The translations under genes were made by a program, and so were the position numbers. The notes beneath the pieces were generated by a model. It ran no database searches and was not told the DNA's origin. It saw nothing but the letters and a program-made list of their open reading frames with translations. Source: an uncultured Lactobacillaceae bacterium (GTDB lineage Bacteria > Bacillota > Bacilli > Lactobacillales > Lactobacillaceae). Taken from it: 64,000 nucleotides of DNA. Numbering within the stretch: position 1 is the stretch's first letter; each line of letters starts with the position of its first letter. The stretch lies in assembly GCA_945285405.1 (NCBI GenBank), contig CALYQJ010000008.1:1-64000 (forward strand). Direction: 5' to 3'. This document shows, one piece after another, positions 5,426 through 11,942 of the stretch.

Positions 5426-6748
5426 ATGAAATATAATTCGAAAAAGCACCATATGGCTATTCCTTGGTATGATCAAATTATGGCTGAAAATCAAACTGTA
5501 AATTCGGCTAGTTTGAAAGAAAAAGCAGCAATTGTTGGTCGTGTTGGAATTATGTTGTTAGCGTGTGGCACTGGAGCTTGGCGTGTTCGTGAAGCTATGA
5601 ACACAATTTCTCGGAATTTAAAAATAACATGTTCTGCTGATATCGGTTTAACTTCAATTTCGTTTACTTGTTTTTACCAAAGTCACTCATATTCTGAAGT
5701 TTTATCCCTAGCAAAAATTGGTGTTAATACAGATAAATTAGATGTTCTAGAACGCTTTGTGAAAGAATTTTCTTCTAATTGTCACAAAATGACACCACGT
5801 CAAATTCATAAACAACTTGATAGTATTCAAAAAAGGCCCAGTCCCTATGGTACATTAGCACAATCATTCGCAGCAGCAATTTCATGCAGTGCTTTTGTTT
5901 TTTTGTTGGGCGGCGGCATTGTGGAAATGTTGTGTTGCTTTCTTGGAGCTGGTTTTGGCAATTGGTTGCGTATTAATCTACTAAGAAAAAAACTAACCTT
6001 ACTTGTAGCTTTAGCAGCGGGTGTAGCAAGCTCATGTTTAGTTTATCTGTTATCATTTTTAGTTTTAAATTTATTTTTTCAAATTTTACCCCAACATCAG
6101 GCTGGTTATATTGGAGCAATGTTATTTGTAATCCCAGGTTTTCCCTTTATTACTAGTATTTTGGATTTAACAAAACTTGATTTACGATCGGGAATTGAAC
6201 GCTTTGTTTATGCTTTAATGATTACAACAGTTGCTACTATGGTTGGTTGGTTAGTGGCTATGATAGTTCACTTAAAACCAGCAAATTTTTTACCATTAAA
6301 TTTGAATCCAATTATTCACTTATTATTGCGGCTATTAGCTAGCTTTTTTGGCGTATTTGGATTTTCAATTATGTTTAATAGCCCACTAAAAATGGCAACT
6401 TTAAGTGGAATTATTGGCTCATTTTCTAATACTTTACGTTTGGAGTTAATTGATTATACAAATATACCGCCAGCTGCTGCAGCTTTTATTGGTGCTTTGG
6501 TTGCTGGTTTAATTGCTTCAATGTTAAATGTTGTAGCAGGTTATCCCCGAATTTCTTTAAGTGTTCCCTCAATTGTTATTATGGTTCCAGGATTATACAT
6601 TTATCGAGGAATGTATAATTTAGGTTTAAATAATATTAGTGTCGCAGCAACCTGGTTGACACAAGCAATTTTAATTATCATGTTGTTGCCTTTAGGATTA
6701 TTTGCCGCTCGCGTTATTTCTGATAAGAAATGGCGGCATAATGATTAA
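5426..6748 (+). CDS. Threonine/serine exporter family protein (fused ThrE-type)
   Basis: 440 aa; VGRVGIMLLACGTGAWRVREAMNTISRNL plus C-terminal multi-TM domain. Confidence 0.88.
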   Translation: MKYNSKKHHMAIPWYDQIMAENQTVNSASLKEKAAIVGRVGIMLLACGTGAWRVREAMNTISRNLKITCSADIGLTSISFTCFYQSHSYSEVLSLAKIGVNTDKLDVLERFVKEFSSNCHKMTPRQIHKQLDSIQKRPSPYGTLAQSFAAAISCSAFVFLLGGGIVEMLCCFLGAGFGNWLRINLLRKKLTLLVALAAGVASSCLVYLLSFLVLNLFFQILPQHQAGYIGAMLFVIPGFPFITSILDLTKLDLRSGIERFVYALMITTVATMVGWLVAMIVHLKPANFLPLNLNPIIHLLLRLLASFFGVFGFSIMFNSPLKMATLSGIIGSFSNTLRLELIDYTNIPPAAAAFIGALVAGLIASMLNVVAGYPRISLSVPSIVIMVPGLYIYRGMYNLGLNNISVAATWLTQAILIIMLLPLGLFAARVISDKKWRHND

Positions 6749-6954: not shown

Positions 6955-7548
6955 ATGGCGCAATTGTTTTTTCATTACGGTGCAATGAATAGCGGTAAAA
7001 GTATTGAAATTTTGAAAGTTGCACACAATTATGAAGAAGAAGGTAAAAAAGTTTTGCTGTTTACTTCAGGTCTTGACGACCGTTACGGCAAGAAGCAAAT
7101 TAAAAGCCGTATTGGTATTGGTCGAACAGCTAAGGTAATATATAAAGATACAGATCTTTTTGCAAAGGTTGAAAAAGCGACTCATGACACAAAAATTTCT
7201 TGTGTGTTAATTGATGAGGCACAATTTTTATCAAAAAAGAATGTTACTGATTGTGCTTTAATTGTTGATGAGCTGCATATTCCAGTAATGACCTTTGGCT
7301 TAAAAAATGATTTTCAAAATCATCTTTTTGAAGGGTCAAAGTATCTTTTACTTTATGCTGATAAACTTGAAGAAATAAAGACAATTTGTTGGTTTTGTGA
7401 CCACAAAGCTACGATGAATTTACGATTGGCAAATAACCAGCCCATTTATGAGGGTAAACAATTTATGATTGGAGGTAATGAATCATATTTGTCGGTTTGT
7501 CGCCATCATTATTTTCATCCTAATTTAAAGGAATTAAGAAATGGATAA
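6955..7548 (+). CDS. tdk: Thymidine kinase
   Basis: GAMNSGKS P-loop, [17 protein letters not shown]-terminal Cys motifs. Confidence 0.93.
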
Positions 7549-8632: not shown

Positions 8633-9437
8633 GCCATTAGTAATTGATTTTTTAAATTTAGCTCGTGCTTTATTAGCTTCTGATGCCATTATTGCTGATT
8701 ATATTGTAGCTGATTTATTGCATGTTCCCTTAACGCAATTACCTTGTTACTATCAGCTTCCTTTTGACGAATTTCCTACAGCTCAAGTATGGCTTAGAAA
8801 ATTCTTAGATGGGGTACCTTATCAATATATTAGTCATCAAGCTTACTTTTATGATTTAGATTTTTATGTTGATCAGCGAGTATTAATTCCTCGCCCAGAA
8901 ACAGAAGAATTAGTCGCTTGGATATTACGTCTATATGATAATTATCCTTTAAGAGTTTTGGATTTAGCCACCGGTTCTGGAGCTATTGGAATTACTTTAA
9001 AAAAGCATCGCCCTCAATGGCGAGTTACTGCAAGTGATGTTTCAGTTGCAGCATTACAAGTTGCAAAAAAGAATGCTCAGAAAAATCAAGTAGCAATTAA
9101 TTTTGTTTTAAGTAATTTATTTCAAAAAATTGAAGGGAAATATGACTTAATTGTAACTAATCCTCCCTATGTTTCTTCAAGTGAAATTGATGAAATGGAT
9201 TCAAGAGTAATAGATTATGAGCCACCATTGGCTTTATTTGCGCCTAATTTGGGACTTTATTTTTATAAAAAAATTTATCAGCTCATTCAAAATTACTTAA
9301 ATACAAAAGGAAGTTTGTTTATGGAATTTGGATTTAAACAAAAAAAAAGTTTGGAAGAAATTTTTAAAGAAGGGCAATTAGTTTTTAAATCTGACTTGGC
9401 AGGTCATGATCGCATGCTTTGGTGGCGAAATGACTAA
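8580..9437 (+). CDS. prmC: Release factor glutamine methyltransferase (likely true start TTG at 8613)
   Basis: RPETEELV, LDLATGSGAIGITL, NPPYVSSSEID. Confidence 0.93.
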   Translation: MLMIKLKSWKILKTVKTKPLVIDFLNLARALLASDAIIADYIVADLLHVPLTQLPCYYQLPFDEFPTAQVWLRKFLDGVPYQYISHQAYFYDLDFYVDQRVLIPRPETEELVAWILRLYDNYPLRVLDLATGSGAIGITLKKHRPQWRVTASDVSVAALQVAKKNAQKNQVAINFVLSNLFQKIEGKYDLIVTNPPYVSSSEIDEMDSRVIDYEPPLALFAPNLGLYFYKKIYQLIQNYLNTKGSLFMEFGFKQKKSLEEIFKEGQLVFKSDLAGHDRMLWWRND

Positions 9438-10350
9438 AATTTTTCATCAAAAAGATTTTTTTGCTGCGGTACCATTAATTAAATCTGGTGCCACTGTAGT
9501 TTATCCGACGGAAACGGTTTATGGATTGGGAGCTGCGCTTAATAATGTTGAATCTCTAAAAAAAGTTTTTAAAATAAAACATCGTTCTTTTGATAAACCT
9601 TTGAGTTTAAATATTGCTGACGCAACAATGGCACGACCTTTTATAAATGAAAAAGATTATTTAATTTATAAAAGAATAGCAAAAAAGTTTTTGCCAGGTC
9701 CATTGTCAGTAATTTTTAAAACAAATTATTGTGGAGCAACCAGTAGTTATTTTACTCATAATCATACAATTTCTTTACGTATGCCAGATAATGATTATTT
9801 TTTGGCAATTTTAAACAAAATTGGACCTTTACCAGGTACATCAGCTAATTTAAGTGGCCAATTATCACTAACTCAAGAAGAAACAATTATTTCTTCAATG
9901 AATAATTTAGCTGATGTCATTCTTTTAAACGGAGAAGGGAAAGTAGGAGTTGAGTCAACAATTTTAGATTTGTCAAATGATCCGTTGATTCGACGCCAAG
10001 GAGTTATTTCGGTATCTGAATTAACAAATTTTTTACAAAAAGAAGTGAAGGTTTTATCAGATCAAAGGCATTATCAATTAACAAAACCTTTGTATATCTA
10101 TCAAAATTATTCCGAACTAGCTAATTTAATTACAGTTCATTCTAGAGAAAATTATTTTATTTTAGGAAATAATTTTGATTTACCAGGAAACCATTTAGAT
10201 TTAAGTAGTAATCCATTATCAGAATTGTTTAAAATTGTTAAAGCATTGAATGATAATCCAGAAATTACAGTTATTTTTGCTCAAGTGACTGGTAATAATT
10301 TGTATTCTAAAAAAGTTGAGGAAATGGTGAACCATGAAATTGGCCTTTAA
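9406..10350 (+). CDS. L-threonylcarbamoyladenylate synthase (YrdC/Sua5 family)
   Basis: YPTETVYGLGAALNN, KIKHRSFDKPLSLNI, GTSANLSGQ; extended C-terminus. Confidence 0.9.
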   Translation: MIACFGGEMTKIFHQKDFFAAVPLIKSGATVVYPTETVYGLGAALNNVESLKKVFKIKHRSFDKPLSLNIADATMARPFINEKDYLIYKRIAKKFLPGPLSVIFKTNYCGATSSYFTHNHTISLRMPDNDYFLAILNKIGPLPGTSANLSGQLSLTQEETIISSMNNLADVILLNGEGKVGVESTILDLSNDPLIRRQGVISVSELTNFLQKEVKVLSDQRHYQLTKPLYIYQNYSELANLITVHSRENYFILGNNFDLPGNHLDLSSNPLSELFKIVKALNDNPEITVIFAQVTGNNLYSKKVEEMVNHEIGL

Positions 10351-11281
10351 TTCTTCTAAAAATTTAGCTCCTTTTGAAGAAATTAAATGGCAAAAATTAT
10401 TTGGTGAATCTGTATTTATAGAAGAATTTTCCAATGAACAAATTGCTCTAAATGTTTTATTCAATGCTTTGATGAGATCAAATGATCGCTTTTTAATTAT
10501 TTCAGGTGCTACTATTACTCTGAATTCTAAATTTCGTTGGATTTTGAATCATTATTCAGGAAAATATTTAACCGTGGACTTTTTAGATCCAGATTTTGCT
10601 GAAATTAAGTCAGTGGTTAAGAATTATTGTCCACAATTTATTGTTTATGATTTTTTAAATATAGCTCCTAAACCTAATTTGAATTATTGGCATCATTTAA
10701 CTCGTATAAATGGTTCTAAACTTATAATTAGTTTAGGGGAGGGTATTAATAGCAATTTTATTCAAGAATGCAGTTTGATTTCTCATGCTGATTTTTTGAC
10801 TGCTTTTTGGGGGATGGGACTAATTGTTACTTCTCCACAAAATCGTAATGTGATTAAAGATAGTAAGCGTGATTTTTTAGGAAAAGATAACTTAGTCAAA
10901 CCTAATTGGGTAACCCCTAAAACTGCAGTAGCCAATTTTAAATATCTATTAAAAGAAATTGATTCGAGTTTTATTTATGGTAAAAAAGGGAGTTATGCTC
11001 TTTTTGGTTTTCAAGAAACGGCTCAACGTGTAGAAAATTTTCAACAAATTTTAAAACAAATCGGAATTGAATTATTACAAGTCCCTTTAAAAAATAAAAA
11101 ATTATCTTTCTTAGAGCTCTCAAGTTTTAAGTTAACTCAGCAGGAGTATTCAATTAATTCATTCACTAAATTAGGAAAAATAATAATGATGGCGTTTTAT
11201 TATCAAAAAGATATAATAAAGCTTGAAGATTTGCATCAAGAAGTATTAAATATCTATCGGGATCATTTAGAATCTCAATAA
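10334..11281 (+). CDS. Highly diverged GlyA (serine hydroxymethyltransferase)-like protein lacking recognisable PLP-lysine motif
   Basis: 315 aa; collinear similarity to SHMT ([38 protein letters not shown]...HYSGKY...CPQFIVYDF...[17 protein letters not shown]); position between sua5 and upp. Confidence 0.7.
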
Positions 11282-11312: not shown

Positions 11313-11942
11313 TTGAGTAAGTTTACAGTTTTAAACCACCCATTAATTCAACACAAGTTGACAATTATTCGGGATAAAAATGCCGGTACTAAGGTGTTTC
11401 GGGAAGTTGCTAATGAAATAGCTGAATTAATGGTATACGAGATTACTCGGGATTTACCATTGAAAGATGTAAAAATTGAAACCCCAATGGGACAAACTGT
11501 TCAAAAAACATTGGCGGGTAAAAAATTAGCAGTAATACCAATTTTAAGAGCAGGTCTAGGAATGGTAGATGGGGTTTTACGTTTAATTCCAGCAGCTAAA
11601 GTTGGTCATATCGGAATGTACCGTGATGAAAAAACTTTAAAACCCCATGAATATTTTGTAAAAATGCCTTCAGATATAGATAAACGGATTTTATTTATTG
11701 TTGATCCAATGTTAGCAACTGGTGGTTCTGCTAATATGGCAATCGAAGCCTTAAAAAAACGTGGGGCTAAATCAATTCGTTTAGTAGTATTAGTTGCAGC
11801 CCCAGAAGGTGTAAAAGCGGTACAAGAACAAAATCCTGATGTAGATATTTATGCAGCAGCTTTAGACGAAAAAATAAATGATATTGGTTATATTTTCCCA
11901 GGTCTAGGTGATGCTGGAGATAGATTATTTGGGACTAAGTAA
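11313..11942 (+). CDS. upp: Uracil phosphoribosyltransferase
   Basis: [23 protein letters not shown], 209 aa. Confidence 0.96.

Follow-up and report, generated by a model that had tools for sequence, protein, structure and literature searches.

GlyA (SHMT) ranks among the most conserved metabolic enzymes. A literature search for SHMT pseudoenzymes returned a single precedent, SHMTm of Plasmodium, and none from bacteria. The Plasmodium falciparum SHMTm lacks most of the conserved active-site residues and is inactive as a recombinant protein, yet its gene is retained (PMC3014972). It is a second copy beside the active SHMTc, and hetero-oligomerization with SHMTc has been proposed (PMC3014972). 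The passages searched in a review of pseudoenzymes (PMC10211241) describe no bacterial member of the SHMT family.

Here we describe a locus in a 64,000-nucleotide stretch of DNA (the window) from an uncultured Lactobacillaceae bacterium, where a highly diverged but intact gene descended from glyA, which we call pseudo-GlyA, lies between sua5 and upp.

A diverged glyA in its usual slot

The gene order in the window is prfA–prmC–sua5–pseudo-glyA–upp–atpB. The pseudo-GlyA frame (10334..11281, + strand) is open for 315 codons, encodes a 315-aa protein with a predicted SHMT fold, and starts 17 bases within the end of sua5 (9406..10350, +), the gene for L-threonylcarbamoyladenylate synthase. The downstream flank of the slot is upp (11313..11942, +), encoding uracil phosphoribosyltransferase and preceded by a strong Shine-Dalgarno sequence of its own, AGGAGG. 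In other Lactobacillales the order is prmC–sua5–glyA–upp, with a canonical glyA of ∼415 codons, and in all four members of the genus examined here pseudo-GlyA occupies the same sua5–upp position, as expected for descent from SHMT. The first-pass annotation, made from the sequence of the window, had described an open 315-codon frame coupled to its neighbors in the usual place of glyA, and the slot comparison agrees.

Searched as a single protein, pseudo-GlyA matches nothing significantly in Pfam or NCBIfam and falls below the Pfam gathering score for PF00464, so annotation pipelines would probably label it hypothetical. The Kinase-PolyVal (0.018) and NYN (0.16) matches from these single-sequence scans are insignificant, and a weak PADLOC match to JukB (0.011) was discarded. 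Elsewhere in the window, an ORF at 5426-6748, lying upstream of prfA and the thymidine kinase gene, weakly resembles the threonine/serine exporter ThrE (51 bits versus a cut-off of 550).

The relationship to SHMT is clear when the family is treated as a profile. An hhalign comparison of the four family members with 25 SHMTs gives a score of 75.3 (P = 7.7e-10) over 289 collinear columns, compared with scores of at most 26.6 for 60 column-shuffled profiles and 16.5 for the reversed profile. Residues 19-308 of pseudo-GlyA align with residues 86-413 of canonical lactobacillar GlyA. When the PDB was searched with a profile of the four family proteins alone, SHMT was the first match (E = 0.0016) and SHMTs were the top three, with collinear alignments; more SHMTs appear lower down, interspersed with weak matches to two other families. 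An AlphaFold model built from the four family sequences only has low confidence (pLDDT 51), and its top Foldseek match is SHMT (E = 5e-6) with a low TM-score. A model built from a mixed alignment is more confident (pLDDT 78, pTM 0.72; Foldseek match to SHMT at 1.8e-14, TM 0.63), its fold being partly imposed by the canonical SHMT rows in that alignment. SHMT therefore tops the Foldseek search for both models, one of low confidence and the other built with SHMT sequences, which is consistent with an aminotransferase fold. Because the profile–profile alignment lies far above the shuffled controls and SHMT is the top match in the PDB and fold searches, we conclude that pseudo-GlyA descends from SHMT. 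Profile and fold searches against SHMT had been proposed in the first-pass annotation, and they bear out the collinear similarity that it had drawn by eye, except that an 11-residue stretch matched there to NFSGKLYN is not supported; the alignment pairs FRWIL there instead.

Restriction to one SHMT-less genus

Pseudo-GlyA is present, intact and in the same slot, in four species of one genus, the window genome (G000) and three others (G001, G002 and G003). Among 60 relatives compared it was not found outside this genus, the three other members all belonging to it, and a search of 399 Lactobacillaceae with the family profile likewise placed all true members in this genus, its remaining weak matches falling either within canonical SHMTs or in short stretches. 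One near-identical MAG was the sole find in a scan of 84,980 genome species, and a plasmid search returned no homologue. The window protein is 93, 38 and 36% identical to those of the three other species, and identity between the diverged species is 36-47%.

The possibility of a second, canonical glyA was raised at the outset, but no canonical SHMT (PF00464) was found in G000 or its three congeners. The sample comprises four species in three well-separated lineages, and two of the genomes are incomplete MAGs (∼85% estimated completeness). The absence of SHMT is not an artefact of MAG incompleteness, because two of the SHMT-less genomes are single contigs (G003, 2,271,855 bases; G001, 2,311,735 bases). 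We infer that the genus is Xylocopilactobacillus, and its members are probably carpenter-bee gut bacteria. Two NAD-auxotrophic carpenter-bee isolates have been described, KimC2 (2.27 Mb) and XA3 (2.31 Mb), in a paper that does not mention SHMT (PMC10433979).

Loss of the active site

The alignment and a residue table locate the changes within the protein. In the counterpart of LFGAEYANVQPHSGSQA (10388..10447, +), the S-G-S of the PLP-phosphate loop is replaced by N-E-Q or S-E-Q/I. LIISLGE (10721..10741, +) is the counterpart of LMVDMAH, where the four species have S/S/C/M for the Asp that contacts the PLP ring nitrogen and E/E/E/S for the His. In the 11-residue counterpart of ADVVTTTTHKTLRGPRGG (10787..10819, +), the Schiff-base Lys (of TTTHKT) falls within a 7-residue deletion and is missing from all four species; a Trp and two Gly residues there are invariant in the new family. 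The TLRGPR segment that follows this Lys and the QGGP loop are also deleted. In the 11-residue counterpart of KTSGIRIGTPAITTRGF (11117..11149, +), a 5-residue deletion removes the substrate-carboxylate Arg of GIRIGTPA. The N-terminal region, SHMT residues 1 to ∼80 with the conserved IELIASEN and NKYAEGYPGKRYYGG motifs, has a counterpart in none of the four species; the open frame begins at the pseudo-GlyA start, and neither IELIASEN nor NKYAEGYPG is matched. This absence was overlooked in the first-pass annotation, which had reported replacement of the HGGHLTHG, VDMAHIAGL and TTTHKTL elements and a likely loss of PLP chemistry, a loss that the alignment confirms.

Only 10 of the 136 columns that are invariant in 25 SHMTs are kept in all four family members. 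Among aligned columns, 28/94 SHMT-invariant and 74/208 SHMT-variable columns are kept, and this lack of preference for invariant columns indicates that catalytic constraint is entirely gone. Within the four-member family, ∼80 columns are invariant, including RINGS, ADFxTAxWGxG and the FQxILxQxGxE stretch. With the PLP and substrate residues all gone, pseudo-GlyA is, as judged from its sequence, catalytically dead.

Purifying selection and alternative explanations

Between G000 and G002, the two closest species, pseudo-GlyA has accumulated 41 synonymous and 28 nonsynonymous changes, corresponding to a dN/dS of 0.142, compared with 0.145 for sua5 and 0.013 for upp. A binomial test rejects neutrality (p = 4e-10), and pseudo-GlyA is under purifying selection. 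The rapid evolution of the protein across the genus indicates that this constraint is moderate. Differences between G000 and G002 are unevenly spread, at ∼2-4 per 100 bases in 10300-10700 and 9-14 in 10700-11200; in the latter interval divergence exceeds that of the flanks, synonymous sites included, and a recombination mosaic is possible.

Loss of SHMT is not confined to this genus. Forty of the 399 Lactobacillaceae are SHMT-less. Five genomes without SHMT that belong to other genera or families (G011, G019, G030, G041 and G049) have an empty slot, with sua5 adjoining upp; a sixth (G004) has upp in another neighborhood. In another Lactobacillaceae genome, G010, glyA (G010:C8:53294-54423) is split by an in-frame TAA and may represent genuine decay under way. 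The empty slots and the split gene indicate that SHMT loss is tolerated and usually ends in deletion, and the empty slots also make the retention of pseudo-GlyA special. Fhs and FolD, which provide methylene-THF from formate, are encoded by all 14 genomes tested. Of the four members of the genus, only G001 and G003 have thyA (PF00303) and strong threonine-aldolase-like matches. The G000 and G002 MAGs lack thyA, though the window encodes a thymidine kinase (6955-7548); thymidine auxotrophy or incomplete assembly could account for this. Many genomes of genera g23 and g26 among the 399 Lactobacillaceae have two PF00464 matches.

The first-pass annotation had left the choice between decay in progress and a repurposed pseudoenzyme. 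A plain pseudogene in slow decay, its frame surviving by chance, would account for the fully lost active site, the deleted N-terminus and the fast evolution, and the stop-split gene of G010 shows that broken glyA does occur in a relative. However, the random frameshifts that the first-pass annotation had said would point to a simple pseudogene are absent from these species, all four frames being open despite near-saturated synonymous sites across the genus. Simulated neutral evolution always introduced stops, whether at 0.26 or at 0.8 substitutions per site, and essentially no frame stayed open. Together with the dN/dS of 0.14, which had been suggested as a check, these observations reject decay, and we consider it very improbable; the repurposed pseudoenzyme stands, its new role being the inferred part. 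Even less probable is that the ORF is kept merely for translational coupling of sua5 to upp, the protein itself being irrelevant. The sua5 overlap of 10-17 bases in 4/4 species and the closeness of upp fit such a role, but the constraint acts at the amino-acid level, and the five genomes with sua5 directly beside upp, as well as the AGGAGG of upp itself, indicate that upp expression needs no filler.

A harder alternative to dismiss, albeit still an improbable one, is a neofunctionalized enzyme in which the SHMT fold supports another, PLP-independent reaction or uses a different cofactor in a remodeled pocket. New invariant residues do lie in or near the old pocket, namely TAxWGxG, the Glu of the phosphate loop, KFR and HLxRINGS. 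They form no recognizable catalytic constellation, however; the Asp position varies freely (S/S/C/M), and a search found no known PLP-free enzyme in this fold family.

Divergence of the neighboring Sua5

The sua5 product is the sole PF01300 protein in each of the four genomes and is unusually diverged. Its identity to the Sua5 proteins of other lactobacilli is 24-30%, whereas those proteins mostly share 50-60% among themselves (37-42% for G030), and it has lost the linker motif KAPGMKYKHYAP. No such acceleration is seen in prmC, upp or atpB; TsaD may be somewhat diverged as well, judging from a rough comparison of partial reading frames. Loss of t6A synthesis from the genus is ruled out by the retention of TsaD and TsaB, and the pathway is presumably still needed. 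The translational overlap and the co-divergence would make Sua5 the most economical partner for pseudo-GlyA and the leading candidate, although this is a guess, and the acceleration of Sua5 may be independent of pseudo-GlyA. An extension of this idea, which we think unlikely but less so than the alternatives above, is that the pseudo-SHMT is an obligate Sua5 subunit that supplies in trans the function lost with the linker, gating or handing over threonylcarbamoyl-AMP. If so, t6A synthesis in this genus would be carried out by a two-subunit synthase built in part from a dead folate enzyme.

A model for the origin of pseudo-GlyA

The simplest interpretation of these results, to which we assign a probability of roughly 0.85, is that the sole glyA of the genus became a PLP-free pseudoenzyme with an SHMT fold, selectively kept for what is presumably a binding or scaffold role. 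The vertically inherited glyA would have lost its catalytic role in the ancestor of the genus, where the retained formate route (Fhs and FolD) and external glycine could have covered for the missing activity. Remodeling would have followed, in which the first ∼80 residues and the active-site loops were lost, to give a PLP-free protein kept by selection. Pseudo-GlyA would then fold stably and, instead of carrying out SHMT chemistry, act as a scaffold or regulator that binds a partner or ligand. At the former PLP site, the invariant Trp-Gly-x-Gly that replaces the Lys loop may plug or reshape the pocket. As an enzyme homologue that has lost its catalytic residues and is kept under purifying selection, pseudo-GlyA qualifies as a pseudoenzyme on these features.

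Ancestral, decayed and deleted states of glyA are all visible among the relatives, and the locus offers a clean and directly testable natural case of an enzyme becoming a pseudoenzyme without gene duplication. It also brings to light a protein overlooked by homology-based annotation and, alongside it, an oddly diverged Sua5.

Comparison with known systems

Pseudo-GlyA shares with GlyA (PF00464) its slot, collinear homology over 289 columns and a predicted fold; unlike GlyA, it lacks the N-terminal ∼80 residues, the Schiff-base Lys, the PLP Asp and His, the phosphate loop, the QGGP loop, the substrate Arg and a significant Pfam match. The genomes with clean glyA loss resemble those of the pseudo-GlyA genus in being SHMT-less and in keeping Fhs and FolD, but their slot is empty. 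Prokaryotic pseudoenzymes covered in the review (PMC10211241) likewise keep a fold, lose catalytic motifs and presumably function by binding. The closest precedent is Plasmodium SHMTm, also an SHMT homologue that has lost active-site residues and yet is kept. SHMTm, however, is an extra paralogue in a eukaryote, whereas pseudo-GlyA has replaced the only copy, in genomes with no active SHMT, and has a deleted N-terminus. Pseudoenzymes as such are known, but a bacterial genus whose sole SHMT has turned into a conserved pseudoenzyme appears to be new.
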